Virus record (IMG/VR): IMGVR_UViG_3300009320_000138
Coordinates: 1-20,334 of that record
Origin: a virus
Strand: one strand, 5' to 3'
DNA length: 20,334 bases
A model generated the notes under the pieces. That model was not told where the DNA came from and did not search any database. It was given only the letters and a program-made list of their open reading frames with translations. Below, piece by piece: positions 641 through 16,464 of this stretch. The position numbers and the translations under genes are program-made. How positions within the stretch are numbered: position 1 is the first letter of the stretch; each line of letters starts with the position of its first letter.

Positions 641-1205
641 CCTTCAGCGCCTCCAGGTACGCCCGTATCTCGGGCACGCCGACCTTCATGTCGGTGGCCC
701 TGCCCGGAATGTCGTCCACGTTCAGCCCTTCGGCCCGGATCATCTTCAGCCCGGCCTCCGTCATGTCGCCGCTGTTCAGCGGCTCCTCGTCGGCTTCTTC
801 TTCCGGCCCTTCTTCCACTTCGTCTGATGCGCCGGATGGCTCTTCCGTTTCCGCGTCGGTTTGCACGCCATCTCTGTTCTCCTCCTCGTCCGGCGCTTCG
901 CTTGTTAAACCGCCAGCGGTCAGCGCCGCGAGCTTCCCGTCGAGTATCTCGACGCTCGCCGTGTCGTTGACCCGCCTGGCCGCCCTGATGAGTCTCGCGA
1001 GCTTGTCCGCTTCGGACTCATCCGCCGGCGGCGTCTCGGCCACCGCCCCGCCCCTTTCCTGTATCATTGTCTTGAGGATCGCCGCCGTCTCCTGGTCGCC
1101 TACGAACACGGCCGCTTCGTAGCTTTCCTGCAACTGCCCGATCGTCCTCTTCGGCGGCGTGGTCCTGCGCACCGACTTGTTGATTCTCTCGATTGCCATC
1201 TTCAT
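633..1205 (-). CDS. Acidic hypothetical protein with E3-binding-like C-terminal helix pair
   Basis: I do not recognise a family for this 190-residue protein. The N-terminal third is basic and helical. The middle (about residues 70-145) is very rich in Glu, Asp, Ser and Ala and looks disordered. The last 40 residues (AGLKMIRAEGLNVDDIP, then VGVPEIRAYLEAL) resemble the small helix-loop-helix of peripheral-subunit-binding or SAP-like domains. Its start overlaps the portal stop as ATGA, so it belongs to the packaging and head operon; an acidic protein right after portal could be a scaffold-like or head accessory protein, but that is inference. Residues encoded at about 893-920 (ALTAGGLTSEA) are a copy of the second hairpin repeat read through as coding sequence, so the repeat has become part of this protein. 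Confidence 0.6.
   Translation of the reverse strand: MKMAIERINKSVRRTTPPKRTIGQLQESYEAAVFVGDQETAAILKTMIQERGGAVAETPPADESEADKLARLIRAARRVNDTASVEILDGKLAALTAGGLTSEAPDEEENRDGVQTDAETEEPSGASDEVEEGPEEEADEEPLNSGDMTEAGLKMIRAEGLNVDDIPGRATDMKVGVPEIRAYLEALKDD
893..920 (-). repeat. Type-2 hairpin repeat inside a coding region
   Basis: On the minus strand ACCGCTGGCGGT is followed by TTAACAAGCGAAGCGC. The same unit occurs at 7978-8005 and 14349-14376 and, with small changes, at 9303-9330. Here it is in frame inside the acidic protein gene and adds no stop codon. Confidence 0.75.
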
Positions 1206-3091
1206 GCTCCTGCCGCCGCCGGTTGTTTGTTTCCGGCCGGCTGTTGGTTACTCGATCCCGGCCCGGTGGTCCCGGACCCCGGTTGGTCGCGCCGTCCGCC
1301 CAGCGTCCCGGCCCTGGTCCGCCCGGCGCCCATGTTATTCGTGATCGTCGTCCTCGCCGCGCCGCCTTGCGGTTTCGCGTTCATCTGGATATCGGGGATC
1401 GCCTTGAACATCGCGTTCCGCTCGTCGATCCCGAGGTACTGGCCCGTGATTTCCGCGATTTTCGCCACGTCGAGCGCCATCCCCTGCGCCGCAGCCGCCT
1501 GGACCATCCCCGGCTGCGCCAGGTCGGTGACCCACTGCCTGACGATCCGGTACATGTCGTCCGGCGACCGGTCGCGGAAGTGGTACGGATCGACCTTCAG
1601 CCCGTAGTCCTCGAATTTTCCCTGTTTCCTGGCCGGGTCCCACAGCCGCGCGACTTTGAGCCCCTCTCCGATCTCCAGTTGGAGGCGCCTGACGGTCACC
1701 GGGTCAGACCAGACGAAGCCGGCGATTTTCTCGATGGTCGAATCGGCCGCCGCGCTCACTTCGGCCCGCCATTCGTTCACGCGCACGCCCGCGCTGGCGA
1801 GGTTCATCTGGTCCTGTCCGAGCGTGTTGGCGTCGGCGTTCAGCCCGCCGAGGATGTCCGTGTTGCCCGAAATCCGGTTCAGCCAGTCCTGCAGCCACGC
1901 GACGGCCTTGTACCCCGCCTCGTTGACGCCACCGATGGAAAAATTAGTCACGTCCTGGACGTTGTTGACACCGACCATCTCGCCGTCTGATGCGTCCCTG
2001 ACCGCCTCTGCCGCGTCCTCGTGCCCCTTGGAAAAGAGGCCGATGTCTTTTTGCCTCTCGGCCTGCCTGCCGATTTTCCTGGCCACGCGGTTGATGAGCA
2101 GAAACAGGTCGTAGATCACCAGGCAGACCGGCAGGTCGAGCATGTTGCCGGGCACGGGCGTGAAGCCATAGATGTCGTACGGGCCCGACGCCGGACCCGT
2201 CCAATCGCTGCGGGCGAGATAGCCGTCGATCTCGAAGTTCGGGTCGCCTGCGATGGTCACGATGGCCCGTTCGCGCGGCAGGTACAGGTCCATCAGTTCG
2301 AGGCGGTCGTACAGCTCGAACTGTTGGCGTTCGGTCGGCCTGGCCCCGTCGATCACGGCCGCCGATTTGCCCGCCGACCGCGACGCCACCTTGGCCGCGT
2401 GCATCCGCTCCAGCGCATCCTTGTCGAACCGCCCCGAGTCCATGGCGTCTTCGTACTCGACCATGTACCGGTTGCCCTCGACGGCCGCGCCGGACCGTGT
2501 CTTGGAGGTCATGTCGATCACGTAGTCGTCGAAATCGACCGGGTCGCAGAAGACCGCCCCGGCGTCCTCCGCGATGTTCCCGTTCGTGTCGAAGCCCGGC
2601 CCGGTCGCCCTCAGCCCGCACTTGGTGACGCCCGTCGCGAACAGGGCGTCGTAGACCACCAACTTGATCGCCCCGTCGAACCGGAGCGTCTTGAGTTCAT
2701 CGTCAATGGCCAGCCGGAACGTCTCGGCGAACGCGAGCAGCTCTTCGTTGGTGCTGGTGACCTTCGCCCTGGGCCTCAGCAGCAGTGACGGCACGAGCGT
2801 CGAGACCATCGAATAGATCAGGTTCAGCGGTTCGGCCATGTCTGGGTTCGCCCCGTAGTGCGGCCCGCAGAAGTGGCGGAGCAGTTCGGTGCGCTTGTCG
2901 CGGTGCGGCTGGAGTTTCCGCTCGGAGAACAGGACCAGTTCCCGGACTTTCCTGGCCTGGAGCGCGTCCTGATCGTTCCGGGAGGTCTTTATGCCCGGCC
3001 CGGCCGGCCCGCCGGGCACGAGGTCTTCCTGCCCGGCGGATGTCGGGTCCACCCTGGAACTGACCTTCGGTCTTTCATTCACTGCGACCAT
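1202..3091 (-). CDS. Phage portal protein
   Basis: This 629-residue protein would form the dodecameric ring at the capsid vertex through which DNA is packaged and released. The call rests on size, position directly after the terminase genes, and familiar portal features: an N-terminal region with repeated hydrophobic helices (EPLNLIYSMVSTLVPSLL near residues 87-104), a long mixed alpha/beta core, and a helical stretch rich in Gln and Ala before the C-terminus. The last 60 or so residues are Gly, Ser, Gln, Pro and Asn rich and probably disordered. The start is well supported: GGGAG lies 7 bases upstream of ATG, and this ribosome binding site is the right flank of a hairpin repeat element. The stop overlaps the next gene as ATGA. 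I cannot assign it to a specific portal subfamily. Confidence 0.82.
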   Translation of the reverse strand: MVAVNERPKVSSRVDPTSAGQEDLVPGGPAGPGIKTSRNDQDALQARKVRELVLFSERKLQPHRDKRTELLRHFCGPHYGANPDMAEPLNLIYSMVSTLVPSLLLRPRAKVTSTNEELLAFAETFRLAIDDELKTLRFDGAIKLVVYDALFATGVTKCGLRATGPGFDTNGNIAEDAGAVFCDPVDFDDYVIDMTSKTRSGAAVEGNRYMVEYEDAMDSGRFDKDALERMHAAKVASRSAGKSAAVIDGARPTERQQFELYDRLELMDLYLPRERAIVTIAGDPNFEIDGYLARSDWTGPASGPYDIYGFTPVPGNMLDLPVCLVIYDLFLLINRVARKIGRQAERQKDIGLFSKGHEDAAEAVRDASDGEMVGVNNVQDVTNFSIGGVNEAGYKAVAWLQDWLNRISGNTDILGGLNADANTLGQDQMNLASAGVRVNEWRAEVSAAADSTIEKIAGFVWSDPVTVRRLQLEIGEGLKVARLWDPARKQGKFEDYGLKVDPYHFRDRSPDDMYRIVRQWVTDLAQPGMVQAAAAQGMALDVAKIAEITGQYLGIDERNAMFKAIPDIQMNAKPQGGAARTTITNNMGAGRTRAGTLGGRRDQPGSGTTGPGSSNQQPAGNKQPAAAGA

Positions 3092-3098
3092 CGTTTGT

Positions 3099-3140
3099 CT
3101 CCCAACGGCACGCGACGATCAAGATCGTCCGCTAAACTCA
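3099..3140 (-). repeat. Intercistronic hairpin element supplying portal RBS and upstream stop
   Basis: Read leftward: TGAGTTTAGCGG, stem GACGATC-TT-GATCGTC (3114-3129), then GCGTGCCGTTGGGAG. The TGA of the left flank is the stop codon of the upstream small gene at 3138. The GGGAG of the right flank (3099-3103) lies 7 bases before the portal ATG. Confidence 0.85.
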
Positions 3141-3326: not shown

Positions 3327-3457
3327 GTGGATCTCCCGACGCACCGTCCTGATCTCTACCGGCGCCTCGCCTCCCCTTGCGGGGAACCGAGGACACGCCG
3401 TTCGCCGTTCGCCGTCGCCAAGTCCCAAGTGCCAATTGCCAATTGCCAGCCGTTGAT
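3327..3457. other. Repeat-bearing gap between terL and the small gene
   Basis: This 131-base strip holds a tandem tract of AATTGCC-like units (3420-3448) and a small hairpin CCCC-TTGC-GGGG region near 3372-3383. It is open in one frame, but the translation is repeat-like and I do not treat it as coding. Confidence 0.45.
3420..3448. repeat. Tandem TTGGCAAT-type intergenic tract
   Basis: On the minus strand this is a run of degenerate TGGCAAT / TTGGCA / CTTGGGA units just after the terL stop at 3458. It resembles the tract at 10229-10267. If translated it reads as (L)AIGNWxLG, a pattern I recall from spurious ORFs in planctomycete-like genomes. Confidence 0.7.
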
Positions 3458-4573
3458 TCACCATCTCTCACCCGTTTTGTTCCGCCTGGCCTCATATCGT
3501 TTCCGCCTGTCGGCCGGCGAGTTATGCGGCGGCGCCATCGGCGTGCGGATCTTGAATTTCGGCAGGTCCAGGCACGCCCGCCACGCCAGTGCCCCGGCGA
3601 TGACCAGGTCGCCGTGTTTCTCGCGTACGGCGACCGGCTGTGACTTCAATCGCTGATGGCACGGCCTGCCGAGTTCGTCGTAAATGTATGCCCGATGCTG
3701 ATTTATCGTCTCGATGTCGTACAACTTCACCAGGTCCGCCTCCATCGCGTCAATCCACCGGCCGATGAGCAGATCGTCTGTTATCTCGCCGCGTTTCCAG
3801 CCGAGGTTTGCGGTCCGTTTCTCGACGACCGTTTTCGGGTCGGTGTCGCGCCAGATCATCGGGTACCCGCGGTCGGCCATCGCCCGGATCGTGGTGATCC
3901 CGTGCATCTTGCGGACGCAGCAGATGAGTGCGTTGTTGAAGAACCGCCCGACCTCGACGGCGAACCGCCCGAGCATACCCGGCCGGATCGTGTTGCAGGC
4001 CAGGCACGCGGCCTGTTCGCGTGTGTCGTTGAAAAACACCTGAATCGTCGAATCGGATTTTTCGACGCCCTCGCCCACGTCGATCCCGATGCCCGCCTCG
4101 CGCGAGAATTCGGTCACGTGCTCGGGCAGCCCGGCGGGCCTCGTCTCGGGCCGGATGTAAACCTTCAGGCGCCCGCGCCTGCGCGACTTCGGGACCAGGA
4201 CGTACTTGACGTGCCCCAGACTGTCGCGCTGGACAACCCCGTTTTTGCTCAGCCGGTGAATGTCCATATACTCGACCGGTTCGCGTGCCCGCGCCCGCTG
4301 CCGGTCGATCCACTCCTCCTCGAAGACCGGCTGTCCGGTCTGGGCGTCCCAGTCGCGGAGCATTTCCTGCTTCCACCGCCAGCCCGGCATGCCCGCCTTC
4401 TCCGATTCGATCAGTTCCGGCGTGAACGTCTGCGGGTCCGCCTCCATGCCCAGGTCGACCGCGACGAACCCGTTCCGATTGCCGTGGACGGTCAGCCCCG
4501 GCATGATGACCCGCGACTCGCCCGTCGCTATCGCGAACCGCTCGTCGTCGGCTATCACTCGGTCAACCTTCAT
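3458..4573 (-). CDS. terL: Terminase large subunit, nuclease part (second half of split terL)
   Basis: This 371-residue product is the C-terminal half of a large terminase: an ATPase-tail region followed by the RuvC/RNase-H-like nuclease that cuts concatemeric DNA. The nuclease strand GIGIDVGEGV (Asp at about 165) is the expected first catalytic acid. The C-terminal HGDLVIAGALA (about 320-330) matches the usual HDDLV(I/V)A(L)A motif with the first Asp changed to Gly. The middle acid usually seen before the HG motif is not obvious (ICCVRKMHG, about 217-225). The ATG at 4573 is preceded by GAGGA at 8 bases and overlaps the stop of the ATPase gene by 11 bases. An in-frame ATG at 4717 exists, but its Ala/Pro/Arg-rich extension looks like shadow translation. 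See findings for split gene versus frameshift. Confidence 0.8.
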   Translation of the reverse strand: MKVDRVIADDERFAIATGESRVIMPGLTVHGNRNGFVAVDLGMEADPQTFTPELIESEKAGMPGWRWKQEMLRDWDAQTGQPVFEEEWIDRQRARAREPVEYMDIHRLSKNGVVQRDSLGHVKYVLVPKSRRRGRLKVYIRPETRPAGLPEHVTEFSREAGIGIDVGEGVEKSDSTIQVFFNDTREQAACLACNTIRPGMLGRFAVEVGRFFNNALICCVRKMHGITTIRAMADRGYPMIWRDTDPKTVVEKRTANLGWKRGEITDDLLIGRWIDAMEADLVKLYDIETINQHRAYIYDELGRPCHQRLKSQPVAVREKHGDLVIAGALAWRACLDLPKFKIRTPMAPPHNSPADRRKRYEARRNKTGERW

Positions 4574-5276
4574 CGAGCCGGTCCTCGTGGAGCAGGCGCG
4601 TGTGCCCGCCGTCGGCCATGTTGGCCGTGGTGACGGATGAATAGCCGCCGCCGCCGCGAATGCAAGGGCGAGCAGCGGTGTACGCATCGGCCGCCTCGGG
4701 TTGCAGCGCCGCCTCATCGCTCAGTATCCTCGATGCCGTCCGCTGTCTGATGATCGACGCGCCCTGGGGGATCGCCCACAGCGTCGAGTTGTTCGACGGC
4801 AGCAGTATCTTTTTGCCCATTGGCGTGTAGTCCGGCACGAGAATTTCGCGTCCGGGCATGTGGTTCATGATGAATTTCGCCCGCCCGAGCAGCCCGTCGC
4901 CGGAAGTCTCGTCGCCGATGGCGTCCTCCTCGCGTTTCGACTGGAACATGATGAGCCGCCCGTGATGGAACAGCGCGTCCCAGAGGCACAAAATCACGAA
5001 CAGCCACGTCATTCGCATCTGCCTGGCCTTGAGCACGCTGATACACAGGTTCCGCTGCCAGAGCCTCGTCATGTTCTGGATGTACGGCAGATGCCACGGC
5101 CATCGCTTGATCGGATTGTCCTGGTCGTGCTGATCGCATGTCCAAACAAACCACCGCTGAAACAGTATCGGATCACGTCTCGCCAGTTCCCACCGCGCGC
5201 GGAGCACCGCCGTCAGTGCGGTCGGGTCGGACTTCAAACCGTTCAACGGCCCCGGCAATGCGCATGAGTTCTTCAT
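4563..5276 (-). CDS. terL: Terminase large subunit, ATPase part (first half of split terL)
   Basis: This 237-residue product is the N-terminal packaging ATPase domain. The deviant Walker A motif KARQMRMT lies at 83-90 after a hydrophobic strand, Walker B RILSDEA at 183-189 with Asp-Glu at 187-188, and the coupling motif SVTTAN at 214-219. The ORF then stops at 4563, while the adjoining nuclease half continues in the +1 frame; together they give about 600 residues, normal for one terL. The ATG at 5276 overlaps terS by 104 bases, which is long. A GTG at 5207 (residue 24) would cut the overlap to about 35 bases but has no clear ribosome binding site, so the start is uncertain. Confidence 0.82.
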   Translation of the reverse strand: MKNSCALPGPLNGLKSDPTALTAVLRARWELARRDPILFQRWFVWTCDQHDQDNPIKRWPWHLPYIQNMTRLWQRNLCISVLKARQMRMTWLFVILCLWDALFHHGRLIMFQSKREEDAIGDETSGDGLLGRAKFIMNHMPGREILVPDYTPMGKKILLPSNNSTLWAIPQGASIIRQRTASRILSDEAALQPEAADAYTAARPCIRGGGGYSSVTTANMADGGHTRLLHEDRLDEG

Positions 5277-5913
5277 CGCTTTTTTCTCGCAGGTCCATGA
5301 TGACGGCCGCCGCGGTCCCGTCCACCTTCCCTGAGTGCACCCGTTTTTCGCTGACGATCCCCAGCACCCTGGCGACCAGAGCCATGGCCGTCAGCCTGTC
5401 GTACATGGCCAGCCGGCGCTTGACGACCTCGCCGATCTCGTTACCGTCGTCGTCCGTGAGCATCCGCCGCTCTTCCCACACGTCGCGAACCAGTCCGGTA
5501 TCGACCCCGTCCTGGCGGAGTTCCCGCAGCGATTTTTCACACTGGATGTACGGCTCGAAGTCGGCGATATCGCCCCCGAAACCGATCTTGGCGACCTCCA
5601 TGAGGACCGCTTCTCGTGTGATTCCGTGCGTCTCGAATTCCTCTCGGATGGCGCTGGCCACCTTAACATTCCTTAACAATCTCGACGCCCCGGCGTCCGC
5701 CCCTCTCGGACGGTAACCTGCTGCCAGATAAGCCTTTGCCCCGTTCAGCGACTCAAGATATTTGATGACGAAAAGCCTTTGTTTGGAGGAAAGCGAGTCA
5801 AACGCGGATTTGGTCCCCAAACTGTTCGATTTGGTCTTCGCGCGGCGTGTTTTGGTCTCCGCTCGCGGTTTCGCGCCTTTCGGCGCTGTCGCCTTTTTCG
5901 CCTTTTTCGCCAT
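5173..5913 (-). CDS. terS: Terminase small subunit (Terminase_2-like)
   Basis: This 246-residue protein recognises the packaging site and recruits the large terminase. Residues 41-90 (LSSKQRLFVIKYL, NGAKAYLAAGY, ASRLLRNVKV) match the helix-turn-helix signature of small terminases very well: 'the K/R-Q-x-x-F-V-x-x-Y-L ... N-x-x-x-A-Y-x-x-A-G-Y ... A-x-x-L-L-x-N-x-x-V' pattern. An N-terminal Lys/Ala/Arg-rich tail of about 30 residues is probably disordered. The central part is acidic and helical, and suits ring oligomerisation. It sits directly upstream of and overlaps the ATPase half of terL, the canonical order. The ATG at 5913 has only a weak ribosome binding site. Just upstream lies one arm of the 61-bp inverted repeat. 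Confidence 0.85.
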   Translation of the reverse strand: MAKKAKKATAPKGAKPRAETKTRRAKTKSNSLGTKSAFDSLSSKQRLFVIKYLESLNGAKAYLAAGYRPRGADAGASRLLRNVKVASAIREEFETHGITREAVLMEVAKIGFGGDIADFEPYIQCEKSLRELRQDGVDTGLVRDVWEERRMLTDDDGNEIGEVVKRRLAMYDRLTAMALVARVLGIVSEKRVHSGKVDGTAAAVIMDLREKSDEELMRIAGAVERFEVRPDRTDGGAPRAVGTGET

Positions 5914-5951
5914 GCGCGGTCAATGTCGGCGATTGGACGTTGACCGCTTGA

Positions 5952-6012
5952 GCGGAACATCGACTGCTACTGCGATGCGATGGCCTGAATCACGATAACC
6001 GCTGCACCATTT
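5952..6012. repeat. Left arm of an interrupted inverted repeat
   Basis: Bases 5952-5987 are the exact reverse complement of 7173-7208 (36 bp). Bases 5983-6012 are the exact reverse complement of 6990-7019 (30 bp). The two matches overlap at GGCCTG. The left arm is thus continuous, whereas the right arm carries an extra 153 bases. The inner part encodes the last residues of the XRE gene. Confidence 0.9.
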
Positions 6013-6211
6013 CGGCAACGGAGCACTGCAATGCCTTGGCGACGCGCTGGAGGGTATCGAACTGGGGCGAATATCGGCCTCTTTCCAGGTCCGCCCATTG
6101 CGATTGTGACATCCGCGCCCGTTTCGCGCAGGCTTCCTGCGTCCAGTCCTCGCGGCCGTGAGATTTGATCTGCGCCTCACGGACGCCCTTGATTTTTTTG
6201 GCGATGTTCAT
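5990..6211 (-). CDS. Small XRE-family HTH transcriptional regulator
   Basis: This 73-residue protein consists of a single Cro/C1-type helix-turn-helix domain. WTQEACAKRARMSQSQWADLE (residues about 23-43) is the HTH core, and the following region (SPQFDTLQRVAKAL and then CSVAEMVQ) matches helices 4-5 of XRE domains. The length is typical of a stand-alone Cro-like or antitoxin-like regulator. Its ATG overlaps the stop of the upstream gene by one base (TAATG). The last seven codons lie inside the 61-bp inverted repeat. It sits between the early region and terS, so it may regulate late genes or the promoter at 6912-6940. That role is inference. Confidence 0.85.
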   Translation of the reverse strand: MNIAKKIKGVREAQIKSHGREDWTQEACAKRARMSQSQWADLERGRYSPQFDTLQRVAKALQCSVAEMVQRLS

Positions 6212-6534
6212 TATTTCTCCTTGCGTCGAGCGGCGGCGGCCATGTGCGCCGCTTCACACTCGGAGGCATCGTCCAGCCACGTTTTTTCCGATCTCGCGTC
6301 CAGGGCCTCCATAATCTCATACGCAGAGGATGAGATTTCTGCGGCATAGGGACCCAGATCGCCGGATCGTCCCATGGCGGACGTGACCCTCACGTCAGCA
6401 TCAGGATATTCGGTGTCCAGCCACTCTCGTAATTTTTGTGCGTGGTATTCCGCGTAGCGTTCCGCCTGTGTGGCGGTGGCATACGTGCCCCATGTGCTCG
6501 ATTCGCTGTCAACTATAAATGTAGCCTGGTTCAT
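6211..6534 (-). CDS. Hypothetical protein, 107 residues
   Basis: No family is recognised. The protein is acidic and Ala rich, probably a small alpha/beta fold (ATFIVDSESSTWGTYA at the N-terminus, then helical ERYAEYHAQKLREWL) with a charged helical C-terminus. AAAGGA lies 7 bases before the ATG, a good ribosome binding site. The stop shares one base with the ATG of the XRE gene, so the two are co-translated. The pairing of an XRE protein with a small partner resembles a toxin-antitoxin layout, but no toxin motif is visible. Confidence 0.6.
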   Translation of the reverse strand: MNQATFIVDSESSTWGTYATATQAERYAEYHAQKLREWLDTEYPDADVRVTSAMGRSGDLGPYAAEISSSAYEIMEALDARSEKTWLDDASECEAAHMAAAARRKEK

Positions 6535-6562
6535 CGTCCTGTCCTTTCGTTCGGGTTATTGA

Positions 6563-6602
6563 TCGACCGTTTACCGGCCCGCGCCCTCCGTGGAGGGCTC
6601 GG
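6563..6602 (-). repeat. Hairpin between small genes
   Basis: The stem GCCCTCC-GT-GGAGGGC is preceded on the plus strand by CGTTTACCGG. It may be a diverged member of the intercistronic hairpin family. No U-tract follows, so I do not call it a terminator. Confidence 0.45.
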
Positions 6603-6610
6603 GTGGGGGG

Positions 6611-6850
6611 TTAGTAGCTGTCCTGATGTCTGACGCACAGGACCTCGCCTGCCCCGGCAATCCACATTCCGGGAGCCCCGCAACGTTCGCAGCGTTCGTT
6701 TGGTGTGGTGACAGCCTTGGCGTCGGGCTTGTAAATGCCGCCGGGGCCACTAACGCCCATCCCAGTTGCCTCGTGCAGTATTTGTGTGTGTTGTGGTGTC
6801 TGATCGTTGTTCATCGTCTCGGCGTCATCGTTGTTCATGTTCATGTTCAT
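6611..6850 (-). CDS. Small zinc-ribbon-like hypothetical protein
   Basis: About 79 residues, starting at the ATG at 6850, which is preceded by AAAGGA at 6-7 bases. An ATG at 6904 adds 18 residues but has no ribosome binding site and coincides with the expected transcription start of the promoter just upstream. The N-terminus is a MNMNMNN repeat encoded by a GTTCAT microsatellite. The C-terminal part has CERC, then 14 residues, then CVRH: a CxxC-x14-CxxH arrangement that could bind one zinc ion. It is the first gene after the strong leftward promoter. Function unknown. Confidence 0.6.
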   Translation of the reverse strand: MNMNMNNDDAETMNNDQTPQHTQILHEATGMGVSGPGGIYKPDAKAVTTPNERCERCGAPGMWIAGAGEVLCVRHQDSY

Positions 6851-6851
6851 G
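6831..6851 (-). repeat. AACATG hexamer microsatellite
   Basis: Three units of GTTCAT (AACATG on the coding strand) encode Met-Asn repeats at the N-terminus of the zinc-ribbon-like gene. It is one of several Asn-codon hexamer tracts in this window. Confidence 0.7.
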
Positions 6852-6911
6852 GTAGTTCCTTTCAGGTTCGGGTTGGTGTTTCGTGTTGTGATGTCCTTTG
6901 CCATCTATTGT

Positions 6912-6940
6912 ATTATCGTGTATTCACGTCTGAAAGTCAA
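6912..6940 (-). promoter_or_regulatory. Strong sigma-70-like leftward promoter with an internal palindrome
   Basis: On the minus strand TTGACT (6935-6940) is followed after exactly 17 bases by GATAAT (6912-6917): five of six matches to each consensus hexamer and optimal spacing. Between them, touching the -10 box, is the palindrome CGTG-AATA-CACG (6917-6928), placed where a repressor would block RNA polymerase. It would drive 6611-6850, the XRE gene and probably terS onward. Confidence 0.72.
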
Positions 6941-6989
6941 GGTTTTTTACCGTTTTTGCACGATTATTTTACGGGTGGGATAAACGGTT

Positions 6990-7019
6990 AATGGTGCAGC
7001 GGTTATCGTGATTCAGGCC
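6990..7019. repeat. Inner right arm of the inverted repeat
   Basis: Exact 30-bp reverse complement of 5983-6012. In this copy it is non-coding; in the left copy it encodes the C-terminus of the XRE gene. Confidence 0.9.
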
Positions 7020-7083
7020 CCGAACTAATCTGGATCCCCCCCCGGTGGACACTTGGTTTTTCCGACGATCCGCCTCGTTTACC

Positions 7084-7102
7084 GGCGGACAGCATGTCCG
7101 CC
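7084..7102. repeat. Hairpin element copy (GGCGGACA stem)
   Basis: The stem GGCGGACA-GCA-TGTCCGCC is followed by CCGCCGTTAACCGG. The same stem and loop are found at 11962-11980, and a shorter GCGGACA stem at 13321-13337. It lies just beyond the stop codon of the gene ending at 7109. Confidence 0.7.
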
Positions 7103-7108
7103 CCGCCG

Positions 7109-7306
7109 TTAACCGGCCGGCACGACGTACAGACACCAGTGTTCCGTGTCCAGGCCCACCTCATCGGGTATCCAGGCCATCGCATCGCAGTAGCAGTCGA
7201 TGTTCCGCCACTTGTCCCGCCCCGGCGCCGCCGCCTGCGTGTAATGCTTCAGCCGCCAGCACCGCCGGCACGTCGCGGGTTTGAGTTCCGAATCACCGCG
7301 GGTCAT
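7109..7306 (-). CDS. Cysteine-rich hypothetical protein, 65 residues
   Basis: No family is recognised. CRRC at 13-16 and CYC at 38-40, with a further Cys near the C-terminus, suggest a small zinc-binding domain. The ATG overlaps the upstream stop as ATGA. The segment encoding RNIDCYCDAMA is duplicated in inverted orientation at 5952-5987. The C-terminal part (after AW) lies in the 153 bases that are absent from that second copy. Confidence 0.55.
   Translation of the reverse strand: MTRGDSELKPATCRRCWRLKHYTQAAAPGRDKWRNIDCYCDAMAWIPDEVGLDTEHWCLYVVPAG
7173..7208. repeat. Outer right arm of the inverted repeat
   Basis: Exact 36-bp reverse complement of 5952-5987, inside the coding region of the cysteine-rich gene. 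The direct repeat CAGGCC at 7014-7019 and 7173-7178 bounds the 153-base interruption. Confidence 0.9.
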
Positions 7307-10218: not shown

Positions 10219-10221
10219 CGC

Positions 10222-11076
10222 TTACACCTGGCAATTGGCATTTGGCATTTGGCATTTGGCAATTGGCGACGGCCCGACGGCATTCTCGTGCGAAACGGGC
10301 GACCCGTTCGGGGGTCCCCACGGGAGATTCCGCCGCCGCAGGTCCACGGGGAATTTCTCGGCGTCCGTCACCAGCTTCCCATCGATCCAGAGTTGCTTGA
10401 CGTACACGGGCGTCATCGTGATATCGCACTGCTTGACGATCTGGCGCACCCACTCCAGCGTCTCGGTACCCGGCGCCCCCTTGCGTCGATCATGCCCGAC
10501 GATCGCGCCGCGGATGTGCCTCGCGGTGGCGACGGGCGTCATCCACCAGAACTTGACCGCCTCCCACAGCGGCTCGAACGATATCCACATCCGTTTCAAC
10601 TGCTCGTCGCTGAACGTCGCCAGTTGGTCGGCCATCTCCTGATTGCAGACGCTCAGCCCATGCGAGATATTCGCGGCGTCCCAGCCGACCGGCCAGGACA
10701 TCGCCATGATGAGCCTCCTGAGCCGCTTTGCATTCTTCGTCAACGTGACGTAGTGATGCCACGGGGCCCGGCCGAGCATCATTTCCATCATACTGTCGAT
10801 CCACCGCGACTCCCGCTGCGGGTCCAGCCAGTCGTTGCAGAAGTTCGCCAGTACGACGCCGACGATCTTCGTATCTTCCGGCTGCCTCATTCGGTTGGGA
10901 TGCACGTGGACCTGGAACTTTTTGCACATCTCGCACTTGGCCAGGCCGCGTGCCGCCCATTTTTTCGCCCAGCACCCGTCGCACCCGCGGCTGCACCCGT
11001 ATCCGCACGGGTTCCATCCGTAGTATTCGGTGACCTGATCGTTTTTGTACCCGATGTTTGATTTCGGCATGCTCAT
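10222..11076 (-). CDS. DUF5131 (phage Gp37/Gp68 family) protein
   Basis: This 284-residue protein matches the Gp37/Gp68 (DUF5131) family: an N-terminal WNPCGYGCSRGCDGCWA at residues 21-37 with four closely spaced Cys (24, 28, 32, 35), then CEMC at 48-51, NFCNDWLDP, and the HHYVTLTKNAKRL motif. The Cys spacing resembles a radical-SAM-like iron-sulfur site, and family members are often found in mobile elements; a biochemical role is not known to me. The ATG overlaps the methyltransferase stop as ATGA. The last dozen residues (AKCQMPNANCQV) are the translated tandem TTGGCA tract, so the C-terminus has been extended into the repeat. Confidence 0.85.
   Translation of the reverse strand: MSMPKSNIGYKNDQVTEYYGWNPCGYGCSRGCDGCWAKKWAARGLAKCEMCKKFQVHVHPNRMRQPEDTKIVGVVLANFCNDWLDPQRESRWIDSMMEMMLGRAPWHHYVTLTKNAKRLRRLIMAMSWPVGWDAANISHGLSVCNQEMADQLATFSDEQLKRMWISFEPLWEAVKFWWMTPVATARHIRGAIVGHDRRKGAPGTETLEWVRQIVKQCDITMTPVYVKQLWIDGKLVTDAEKFPVDLRRRNLPWGPPNGSPVSHENAVGPSPIAKCQMPNANCQV
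10229..10267. repeat. Tandem TTGGCAAT/TTGGCAT tract
   Basis: Five or so units of TGGCAAT or TGGCATT lie head to tail. They are read as the C-terminus of the DUF5131 gene. The same unit type is found at 3420-3448. Confidence 0.85.
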
Positions 11077-11939
11077 GTCGGTTTCTCTTCCACGTTTAGA
11101 TCATTCGGAAACAGCGATGTGTCGTCGGGCACGTCCTGGGCGACGTCGTCGAAAAGCGGCTTTTCCGTGTCCCGGACACGCGCCCGGGCCTTGCGGCAGT
11201 ACGTCTCATTGATATCGATCCCGATCCACCGCCGCCCGAGTTTCTTGGCGGCGACGGCGCACGGACCCTCGCCGGCAAACGGATCCAGGATGATGTCACC
11301 GGGGTTCGTGTGGAGTTGGATGAAGTGGGCGTATAACTCGGGAACTTTCGCGCAGGGATGATCGTTTTCGCCTGGGATGATCTTCCTGATTCCGTAGTCA
11401 CCGGGCCGAATGATATTTTCTGTACGTCGTCCGCCGTTCCATCGAATCGCCGCACCCGGAACGCTGCCGACGAGGACCGTTTCATATGATCGACGATAAT
11501 GCCAGCCCATTCCCATCGGCCCCTTGTCCCACACGATCATTTGCTTGAACGAGAATACTTCGTCCATCCAGAGGGACCATCGGGCGAATTGCGGGTCAGG
11601 ACCGCCGCCGCCGCCGCAGCAGCAGCAGCAGCAGCCGGGCTTCAGAATCCGCCGCATTTTCGGAAGGCTCCCCCGATATACGTCGTTTGCCTCGGCCCCG
11701 TCGTTGGTGATGGGTCGATTGTCGCGTTCTGGGACGTAATCGCCCCGCCCCAGTGCGGCCTCCCAACGGGAGATCAGATCGCCGTTGTTGTTGTTGTTGT
11801 GTCCGTAGGGCGGGTCAGTCACAACGCAATCGACGCATCCGTCGGGCATTTCGGCCATCACTTCCAGGCAGTCGCCCCAGACGATACATCCGTCCGCCTC
11901 GCCGTCGATGACCGCTTTGATTTCCGGGTCCATGCTCAT
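11073..11939 (-). CDS. Beta-class DNA methyltransferase (DPPY type)
   Basis: This 288-residue enzyme belongs to the N6-adenine/N4-cytosine methyltransferases. The catalytic motif IV TDPPYG is at 41-46, and the AdoMet-binding motif I LDPFAGEGPCAVAA lies near residue 222, followed by RWIGIDI (motif II). Motif IV before motif I defines the beta class. The recognition region lies between them and contains Cys6-Gly5 encoded by a triplet microsatellite (11602-11634), and Asn5 encoded by a GTT run just after motif IV. Two triplet expansions inside one enzyme are odd. No restriction enzyme is adjacent, so it looks like an orphan phage methyltransferase, probably for protection from host restriction. 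The stop overlaps the DUF5131 ATG by 4 bases. Confidence 0.85.
   Translation of the reverse strand: MSMDPEIKAVIDGEADGCIVWGDCLEVMAEMPDGCVDCVVTDPPYGHNNNNNGDLISRWEAALGRGDYVPERDNRPITNDGAEANDVYRGSLPKMRRILKPGCCCCCCGGGGGPDPQFARWSLWMDEVFSFKQMIVWDKGPMGMGWHYRRSYETVLVGSVPGAAIRWNGGRRTENIIRPGDYGIRKIIPGENDHPCAKVPELYAHFIQLHTNPGDIILDPFAGEGPCAVAAKKLGRRWIGIDINETYCRKARARVRDTEKPLFDDVAQDVPDDTSLFPNDLNVEEKPT
11602..11634 (-). repeat. Triplet microsatellite coding Cys6-Gly5
   Basis: The plus strand reads (CCG)n and then (CAG)n. The coding strand is GCT-phase repeats read as TGC and then GGC, giving a run of six Cys and five Gly in the methyltransferase target-recognition region. Confidence 0.8.
11784..11800 (-). 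repeat. GTT triplet run coding Asn5
   Basis: Five AAC codons in a row sit directly after the DPPYG motif of the methyltransferase. Confidence 0.75.
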
Positions 11940-11949
11940 TTCTTCACCT

Positions 11950-12031
11950 CGGCGGTTTAGCGGCGGACAGCATGTCCGCCCGCCGTCGTTAACGGCGCGC
12001 GACGATCAAGATCGTCCGCTAAACTCTCATT
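11950..12031. repeat. Compound hairpin element at the methyltransferase 3' end
   Basis: Two units lie back to back. One, in plus orientation, has stem GGCGGACA-GCA-TGTCCGCC (11962-11980). The other, in minus orientation, has stem GACGATC-TT-GATCGTC (12001-12016) with flank GAGTTTAGCGG. Most of it is translated as the methyltransferase C-terminus. Confidence 0.85.
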
Positions 12032-13297
12032 GAACAGCGGCGCGTCCTCCGGCGTGTCCTGGACCACGTACCCCGCGACGGTCGCTTTGCCGATCCGGTC
12101 GCGGGCCTGGTCCGCATATTCCGGCTTCAGTTCGATTCCGATCCAGTCGCGCCCGTACACCGCCGCGACGGCCGCGGTCGTACCGGACCCCAGGAATGGA
12201 TCCAGGACGATGCAGGGGCACGGCCCGTCTGTTTCGCATTCGCAGGACGCTTCCCAGCCGGTTGTGCGCGATTCGATTACCGGCCCCCTGCGAATGTCGC
12301 CCGTATTGCCGCCGCCCTGACATTTCGGCCCGTGCTTACCCGCAATTTTCTTGCCGCTCTGGCCGGATCCGCTCAGAAAGTGCTTCTCAGATTCCACCAC
12401 CCGCCGCCACGGGGCCCCACATTCCGGGCAGCAGCCTTTCGCCGATGTCCCTGCCAGAATGCACGGCTCGACGAGTTTCTGCGGAAACGTGGCGAAGTGG
12501 GCCTCCGGATATGCCTCCCTCGGGATCGTCCAGACGGACCGCTTGTTGGCTTTTCCCGTCGCCGGGGCGTCAATGTTCCCGCCCGTCTGCGCAACGTCTT
12601 TCACCGCCTCCATATCGCAGAAGTACCGCGGCTTCTGCGTCAGGAGGAAAATGTATTCGTGTGCCTTCGTGCATCTGTCGCGGCACGATTCGGGCATCGG
12701 GTTAGGTTTGTGCCAGATGATATCCTGTCGCAGATACCAGCCGTCGGCCTGCAACGCAAACGCCACACGCCACGGGACGCCGACCAGGTCCTTCGGCTTG
12801 AGGCCGCGGGTCCGCGGTCCATGGCCGGATTTAAAATTCGGGCGAGCGCTCTGATTTCGCGCCGAGATGGATGTTGCCCGCTGATTGGCCATGTATCCGT
12901 TGTACGAATCACCCAGATTGAGCCAGAGCGCCCCGTCGTCGCGGAGCACTCGCCGGACGTGCCGGAAGACGGCGACCATCTTTTCGACGTATTCCTCCGG
13001 TGTCGCCTCCAGGCCAAGCTGGGCGTCGATGCGCTTGGCGCCGCACTTGGGGCAAACATCGCGGGCTTGCTTGCTACCACTGGCGGCGTTACTGGCCTGC
13101 TTGTCACTCACAACCGTAGTAAAGCCGTCTACGCAATGGTCACACTCAGCATCCCCCCCCTCCCAGGTCGCGGTACCGTAGTCGCGCAGGCCCCAGTACG
13201 GCGGGGACGTGACGACGCACTGTACGGACGCATCGGGTATCGCCGACCACGTGGCCGGGTCCAGCACGTCGCCGATTATGATCTCATTTCGAACCAT
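11957..13297 (-). CDS. Beta-class DNA methyltransferase (SPPYW type) with Cys pairs
   Basis: This 446-residue enzyme has motif IV SPPYWGLRDYG at 31-41 and motif I LDPFLGSGTTAAVAA at 365-379, followed by DWIGIEL. The order is beta class, and SPPY is common in N4-cytosine enzymes though not proof. Three Cys clusters (CDHC 52-55, CPKC 82-85, CCPECGAPW 289-297) suggest structural zinc sites within the insertions. GLKPKDLVGVPWRVAFALQ and IIWHKPNPMPES are family hallmarks. The last 22 residues, beginning SLADDL at 425, are not enzyme-like: they translate a compound of two hairpin elements read through in the one frame in which the element has no stop. The original gene may have ended near residue 424. 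No cognate nuclease is present. Confidence 0.87.
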   Translation of the reverse strand: MVRNEIIIGDVLDPATWSAIPDASVQCVVTSPPYWGLRDYGTATWEGGDAECDHCVDGFTTVVSDKQASNAASGSKQARDVCPKCGAKRIDAQLGLEATPEEYVEKMVAVFRHVRRVLRDDGALWLNLGDSYNGYMANQRATSISARNQSARPNFKSGHGPRTRGLKPKDLVGVPWRVAFALQADGWYLRQDIIWHKPNPMPESCRDRCTKAHEYIFLLTQKPRYFCDMEAVKDVAQTGGNIDAPATGKANKRSVWTIPREAYPEAHFATFPQKLVEPCILAGTSAKGCCPECGAPWRRVVESEKHFLSGSGQSGKKIAGKHGPKCQGGGNTGDIRRGPVIESRTTGWEASCECETDGPCPCIVLDPFLGSGTTAAVAAVYGRDWIGIELKPEYADQARDRIGKATVAGYVVQDTPEDAPLFNESLADDLDRRAPLTTAGGHAVRR

Positions 13298-15300: not shown

Positions 15301-16464
15301 TCATCCCCACAGACAAGCGCCGAGAGTCGCAAACGCATACGCCGCCTCCAGCGGGACCACTCCGTTTCCGAGCAGCCGGAGGCGCTGAGTCCGTCCGGCC
15401 AGCCCATCAGCCACTCGACGAATTTGGCGTTCAAACGCCGCGCGGCTGGCCGCCCCACGCTCGCGGCGATTTCGGCCAGGAGCGACGAGTCGATAGAGTC
15501 GCCTTGCGTGGACAAGCATTCCAAAAGCGTCCGGAGGGAACGCCGGTTCAACGGTGCCGTCGATTTCGAGCACTTTTTGCCAGGCGTCGATGTCCCCGGG
15601 GCCGGGCGGGAAATCCGGCAGTCGTGTTCGACGAAGTTCTGGACTTGCTGGCCCCGTGAGGATCCGGCCGCGTTGCCTGCGATTCGGCCGAGTTCGGCGT
15701 GCGGTAGTCCCGCGTTCGCCGCGGGCGTCGGCCATTCCGTCGCCTGGGCCCCCAGTTCCCCCGTCCCGCCCTGTTTGCCCGATGCGTCCACGTTCCCCGC
15801 TCCGTGGGGGGTCAGCCATGTCATCGCCTGGTTCCGCAATCGTTGTTCCGTTGTCCCCATCTCCTCCGTCCCGTACCGCTCCAGGACCGCCGGACCGTCG
15901 GTCACGTGGTCCCTCGTCGAGGCGCTGTGCCAGAACGAACAGTCGCTGCCGTTTGTGCGGGGCGCCGACTTCCGACGCCGTAAACAGTCCCCCCGCAATC
16001 CGATAATCCATCGCTCGAAGGCAACTGCAAACGGTATCGAACCCGGAAGAAGTGTGCCCGCCCACGTTTTCGAGAAACAGCAGCTCGGGTTCGTATTCCG
16101 CAATCGCCTCAGCGAGCGACCACCAAAGCGACCCGCGAGCGCCGCGAATGCCCGCACGCCCGCCGGCACACGAGAAGTCCGGGCAGGGATACCCGGCGAT
16201 GAACGCCCCGATTCCACCGCCGCCCGTCGCCTGGCGAACGTAATGGCGGAATTGTGGGCCGCAAACGGTGCGCACGTCAGACCAGACAGGCGCCTCAGCC
16301 AGGCAGCCGTTTTCCATCGCCGCCGCAAGGACGCCGACCGCGTAGGCTTCGCACTCAACGTAAGCGACGTGCTCAAAGATTCGGCCGAATGCGAGTTCAA
16401 CCCCGAGGTCGAGCCCGCCGCCTCCGGAGAACAGGCTGAGTGTATCGATGGGATGTACGCCCAC
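15301..16464 (-). CDS. C5-cytosine DNA methyltransferase (Dcm-like)
   Basis: This 387-residue enzyme shows the ordered C5-methyltransferase motifs: motif I LSLFSGGGGLDLG (9-21) for AdoMet binding, motif IV GYPCPDFS with catalytic Cys94, motif VI FLENVGG (130-136), motif VIII GAPHKRQRLFVL (167-178), and C-terminal motifs IX/X with LRLLGNGVVPLEAAYAF. Between about 180 and 300 lies a Gly-, Arg- and Asp-rich target-recognition region. It transfers a methyl group to carbon 5 of cytosine in duplex DNA. The GTG start at 16464 follows GGGGG at about 8 bases; an out-of-frame ATG two bases upstream belongs to a long shadow ORF. No restriction nuclease is adjacent, so it is an orphan phage methyltransferase. 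Confidence 0.9.
   Translation of the reverse strand: MGVHPIDTLSLFSGGGGLDLGVELAFGRIFEHVAYVECEAYAVGVLAAAMENGCLAEAPVWSDVRTVCGPQFRHYVRQATGGGGIGAFIAGYPCPDFSCAGGRAGIRGARGSLWWSLAEAIAEYEPELLFLENVGGHTSSGFDTVCSCLRAMDYRIAGGLFTASEVGAPHKRQRLFVLAQRLDEGPRDRRSGGPGAVRDGGDGDNGTTIAEPGDDMADPPRSGERGRIGQTGRDGGTGGPGDGMADARGERGTTARRTRPNRRQRGRILTGPASPELRRTRLPDFPPGPGDIDAWQKVLEIDGTVEPAFPPDAFGMLVHARRLYRLVAPGRNRRERGAASRAAFERQIRRVADGLAGRTQRLRLLGNGVVPLEAAYAFATLGACLWG

Follow-up and report, generated by a model that had tools for sequence, protein, structure and literature searches.

The window, that is the whole stretch of DNA analysed, comprises the 20,334 bp of an IMG/VR virus record. It is a single metagenomic fragment lacking end repeats, and nearly all of its credible genes are oriented leftward. 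A portal gene and the terminase genes terL and terS occupy part of its left half. TerL is spread over two overlapping frames on the minus strand (4563-5276 and 3458-4717, together 3458-5276); in the relative L053 both parts lie in one frame. Either the frameshift is genuine or the contig has an indel error here. Between the start of terS and the repeat arm described below lies a hairpin, which occupies the position expected for the ribosome-binding site in front of the terS ATG. Further to the right, three DNA methyltransferase genes are found within 20 kb (11073-11939, 11957-13297 and 15301-16464), two of the N6/N4 type and one of the C5 type; genes for DUF5131 and DUF1937 proteins lie in between or close by.

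To the right of terS, a segment of about 1 kb is bracketed by an interrupted inverted repeat (Table 1). According to the original prediction, this segment should hold an XRE regulator, two small genes and a strong leftward promoter that an inversion would turn away from terS. Profile matches (HTH_31 for the regulator, Terminase_2 for terS), the open reading frames and a TTGACT-17-GATAAT promoter bear this out. A match of the XRE protein to RstR falls below the cut-off. For the gene at 6611-6904, translation is likely to start at 6850, which is preceded by an AAGGA box and gives a protein of 79 aa. The gene beyond the cassette (7109-7306) encodes a small CxxC-containing protein with no family match; searches of phages, IMG/VR and Phycisphaerae genomes returned no homologue, and the nominal matches were judged to be due to chance.

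Table 1. Features of the terS-XRE region and of the interrupted inverted repeat.
Feature	Position	Strand	Evidence or remark
Portal gene	1202-3091	-	Identified via homology
terS, terminase small subunit	5173-5913	-	Terminase_2 1.1e-18; phrog_51 1.1e-23
Hairpin, 12-bp stem	5916-5947	-	Just upstream of terS start; adjoins left arm
Left arm, outer part (X)	5952-5987	+	Reverse complement of 7173-7208, lying outside coding sequence
Left arm, inner part (Y)	5982-6011	-	XRE gene ends here: final codons (E)MVQRLS plus stop at 5990-6011
XRE/Cro-CI-type regulator, 73 aa	5990-6211	-	HTH_31 6.8e-11; HTH_3 3.6e-9
Bracketed cassette	6012-6989	-	Reversed GC skew
Cassette gene, 107 aa, no assigned function	6211-6534	-	ORF; coding-like codons
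Cassette gene, 97 aa as listed, no assigned function	6611-6904	-	ORF list
Predicted sigma-70-type promoter, TTGACT-17-GATAAT	6940-6912	-	10/12 matches; faces XRE and terS
Right arm, inner part (Y')	6990-7019	+	Matches XRE 3' end, 30/30; now non-coding, upstream of promoter
CAGGCC direct repeat, left copy	7014-7019	+	
153-bp interruption	7020-7172		3' part of gene 7109-7306 and palindrome-bearing intergenic DNA; missing from left arm
Palindromic hairpin in interruption	7077-7103	+	Member of dispersed set; 11955-11981 is 96% identical
CAGGCC direct repeat, right copy	7173-7178	+	
Right arm, outer part (X')	7173-7208	-	Codes for RNIDCYCDAMA in gene 7109-7306; best of six frames
Small gene, 65 aa, CxxC-containing	7109-7306	-	ATGA overlap of start with upstream stop

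The repeat consists of two maximal exact inverted matches, an outer pair X/X' (36/36) and an inner pair Y/Y' (30/30), which share the 6 bp GGCCTG/CAGGCC. Allowing one mismatch, the outer pair grows to 39 bp (5952-5990/7170-7208). The left arm had been predicted to be 61 bp long. It does run without a break from 5952 onward, but it comprises 60 bases (5952-6011), base 6012 being mismatched. The right arm contains the same 60 bases, broken by 153 bp. Both the split of this arm and the bounding of the 153-base gap by CAGGCC direct repeats were found exactly as predicted; a third CAGGCC lies within the gap at 7151. The inverted repeat is real and far above chance expectation: none of 30 block shuffles produced an exact inverted match beyond 16 bp, the longest ones ranging over 12-16 bp. 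For the 6-bp microhomology at the internal joint, the chance expectation is approximately 0.002. In folding predictions, neither the 153 bp nor the left-arm region stood out from shuffles. A second, imperfect inverted similarity (78-87%) links 3404-3450 with 10220-10273; it is made up of short tandem repeats of the CCAATTGCCAATT type in the ends of coding ORFs.

Each half of the repeat is coding in one copy only, as had been noted before: X is wholly coding at the right, while at the left the XRE gene takes up 22 bp (5990-6011) of the 30-bp Y. X together with the 21 codons after it has a typical coding score in the frame of gene 7109-7306. The score is reached by 50% of true coding stretches and by 0.4% of stop-free off-frame stretches. 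Because X is codon-typical in this gene, X' is native at the right, as is the 153-bp stretch or at least its right half, and X at the left is the copy. A transposon-like origin of the 153 bp, with CAGGCC as target duplication, was rejected on the same grounds, since the right half has the codon usage typical of the 3' part of gene 7109-7306. Codon bias gives no decision for the origin of Y. The Y codons M68-V69, however, align with a conserved aliphatic pair in XRE relatives, and the XRE domain is complete only when they are counted. The position of these codons on the conserved pair suggests that Y is most likely native to the XRE gene, and that 6990-7019 represents an XRE 3' end with its stop codon, located outside any gene.

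Strand composition sets the cassette apart from its surroundings. At fourfold sites, the coding-strand GC skew of the three cassette genes is -0.07, -0.14 and -0.45 (pooled -0.195), compared with +0.19 elsewhere in the record, where 26 of the 28 other genes have positive values. None of 3032 equal-sized runs (123 sites) outside the cassette matched the pooled value. The flanking genes are normal (terS +0.11, gene 7109-7306 +0.42). The intergenic pieces within the cassette are likewise reversed, unlike the adjacent 7020-7108 beyond its edge: on the plus strand the intergenic skew switches at the arms from +0.26 (6851-6989) to -0.23 (7020-7108). AT skew at fourfold sites is unreversed (+0.167 for the 36 A/T sites of the cassette versus +0.185 elsewhere), which counts against an inversion, as full inversion should flip both GC and AT skew. 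GC content at these sites is 0.71 in the cassette versus 0.83. A crude test of replication-linked versus transcription-linked skew in the phage group found opposite-strand ORFs to be often reversed, a result confounded by spurious antisense ORFs. The inference of inversions from GC skew is both used and disputed (PMC6220195 versus PMC9098844). The mixed skew data favour an inversion of the cassette, short of proof, with a foreign cassette as a possible alternative.

Related sequences were sought in INPHARED (DNA and protein), IMG/VR, a GTDB portal search and 397 Phycisphaerae genomes, none of which yielded a close relative. The IMG/VR scans used terS, portal, terL, gene 7109-7306, XRE, a degenerate pattern for the X arm and a portal alignment. 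All relatives obtained match in portal or terL only (21-36% identity) and none contains the cassette. The cassette neighbourhood is absent from these distant relatives, as is any comparable inverted repeat save the REPIN-type repeats of L052; lacking the cassette, they are unable to polarise the event. Portal relatives were detected in 7 of the 397 Phycisphaerae genomes, with a best identity of 36%. Among 84,980 GTDB species genomes, the dispersed hairpin ACGGCxxxCG-N5-CAAG-N5-CCGCTAAAC occurs only in Humisphaera and one Phycisphaerae MAG. Together, the distribution of the hairpin and the portal relatives point to a likely host in the Phycisphaerae.

Short palindromic repeats, which fall into four or more families, sit mostly at gene boundaries of the window (positions 28, 890, 3105, 7077, 7975, 9300, 11955, 11992, 13628, 14346, 14534, 15266 and 17721). 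In the REP-like family at 3105, 11992, 13628, 14534 and 17721, the stem sequences vary yet stay complementary and the flanks are constant; outside the window, Humisphaera and one Phycisphaerae MAG were the sole places where this family was found. In the closest portal relative, G084 of the Phycisphaerae set (L052:9800-13349), paired REPIN-like hairpins of approximately 100 nt flank terS-terL on both sides. These adjoin a Y1_Tnp/RAYT-like HUH transposase (Pfam 1.9e-9).

We propose, with a probability of about 0.45, that the arms are the scar of a single microhomology-guided strand-switching replication event, which gave rise to an inverted duplication and most likely flipped the XRE cassette. 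The ancestral orientation and the order of the jumps, which we infer, would have been as follows. In the earlier state, terS pointed leftward and the cassette (promoter, two small genes and XRE) rightward, so that the XRE 3' end, now 6990-7019, would have converged on gene 7109-7306, with a short spacer containing a palindrome between them. Arriving from the terS side, a nascent strand would have jumped to the opposite strand at 7208, copied back to 7173 and slipped across the 153 bp from CAGGCC to CAGGCC. It would then have read through the XRE end and probably the entire cassette in reverse, before switching back to its first template at the former XRE 3' end. The outcome would be X and Y at the left, a flipped cassette, a Y' relic at 6990-7019 and an unchanged X', with the cassette promoter now facing terS. 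Such a strand switch accounts for the second XRE 3' end with stop at 6990-7019. In both parts, the second arm exactly copies, as reverse complement, a donor site elsewhere in the locus (36/36 and 30/30), and X is coding-typical at its donor. The outer joints, inspected by eye, carry little microhomology (0-4 and about 1 bp), compared with 6 bp at the internal joint. Inversion and template-switch duplication had been put forward as alternatives; apparently they are one event. The junctions fit microhomology-guided switching, and the cassette looks to have been inverted once, with an XRE 3' end left behind at 6990-7019 and a reversed GC skew, although the AT skew is not reversed. An inversion by staggered breaks was rejected: it would leave X outer at the left and inner at the right, but X is found in the outer position on either side.

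Two other readings of the arms are less probable. A plain inverted duplication, in which an inverted copy of the 219 bp at 6990-7208 (minus 153 bp) was put between XRE and terS, is possible but rather unlikely. The last XRE codons would then come from the inserted copy, the 153 bp having been lost between the CAGGCC repeats. It needs an equal number of jumps and uses the same microhomology, and a foreign origin of the cassette could explain its odd composition; the unreversed AT skew also speaks for it. It leaves the reversed GC skew unexplained, however, and requires the coincidence that the copied 6990-7011 supplied conserved C-terminal XRE codons and a stop. Slightly more doubtful is a library or assembly chimera, with opposite strands joined at microhomologies and the arrangement existing in the contig alone. 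The record is one metagenomic fragment, and its apparently frame-split terL suggests that the contig may contain errors. Inverted joins with short complementary joints are, moreover, typical of multiple displacement amplification (MDA): 85% of MDA chimeras are inverted joins with an intervening deletion, mostly at short complementary priming sites and often less than 10 kb apart (PMC1855051). The present locus resembles these in its inverted, closely spaced joins and short complementary joints, but differs in having two joins and a slip inside 60 bp, after which the original strand is resumed; this makes a chimera less likely. An out-and-back double jump 36-60 bp apart would be needed, with both joins within a continuous contig, plus the internal slip. 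In addition, the XRE frame ends sensibly within the arm, and arms of 30-36 bp are shorter than an ordinary read.

According to the original prediction, inversion between the arms would flip the promoter away from terS. A past inversion is partly supported by the XRE 3'-end relic and the GC skew; a current switch is not, given that no recombinase is encoded in the fragment, one arm is interrupted and a second orientation was not seen. For an active cassette of the inverton type, in which exchange between Y and Y' flips promoter and XRE, we see a low probability, although perfect inverted repeats do surround a promoter-bearing segment. In-silico exchange of Y and Y' turns the promoter away from terS, and the five ORFs examined (XRE, the two small genes, terS and gene 7109-7306) all remain intact because the XRE stop sits within the arm. 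The reversed GC skew would also suit a cassette that is mostly in the other orientation. Against this, a serine or tyrosine recombinase (PF00239, PF00589) is absent from the 20-kb record, which may be a fragment and whose host could supply one. The right arm is interrupted, even if Y/Y' is 30 bp and perfect, and the X part is superfluous: in-silico exchange of X and X' shortens gene 7109-7306 to 44 aa. No other orientation is known. Promoter invertons and Hin-type segments likewise place a promoter-bearing segment between inverted repeats; the present locus differs from them in the missing recombinase of the fragment, the interrupted right arm and the single known orientation. It is still a little less probable that a Phycisphaerae phage carries a reversible XRE/promoter cassette whose inversion sites hold the stop codon of the regulator, redirecting terminase transcription without damage to genes. 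If the switch were active, it would be an unusual case of phase-variable control of a phage structural operon.

Two further explanations are very improbable. The RNA of the left arm (XRE 3' end and terS leader) could pair with the mRNA of gene 7109-7306 over 36 perfect nucleotides and exert antisense control. Both arms lie in leftward transcription units and their transcripts would be complementary, but any inverted duplication yields such complementarity automatically, and no Rfam match was obtained. Equally improbable is a small mobile element or moron spanning 5952-7208, with the arms as its terminal inverted repeats. The deviating composition of the cassette would fit, and on visual inspection the flanks CGCTTGA/CACTTGT are identical at 5 of 7 positions. 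However, 7208, the right end, falls inside the continuous, codon-typical gene 7109-7306, and there is neither a transposase nor a clean target duplication.

The locus is most likely a replication scar of a known mutational kind, probably one that inverted the XRE cassette. If such a replicative inversion did take place, the locus is a legible example of how a copying error can reorient an entire regulator and promoter cassette in a phage and give packaging genes a new promoter in a single step. It would also provide a cheap test that separates scars from invertons, based on the native site of each arm and a flip of strand skew at the arms.

Template switching between inverted repeats is known to homogenise the arms and to invert the spacer (PMC8604942). 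The proposed strand-switching event shares several traits with such template-switch or quasipalindrome-type events (PMC8604942, PMC7202029), namely perfect arms copied from the opposite strand, an apparent inversion of the spacer and a return to the original template. It differs in scale, as the published spacers are a few bases, compared with 978 bp here. The arms are 978-1185 bp apart and 60 bp long, and there is an extra 153-bp slip between direct repeats. Several jumps per event, short microhomology at a joint and a combination of duplication, deletion and inversion are also features of FoSTeS/MMBIR (PMC2621351), which was described for human copy-number changes, whereas the event proposed here affected approximately 1 kb of a phage genome.
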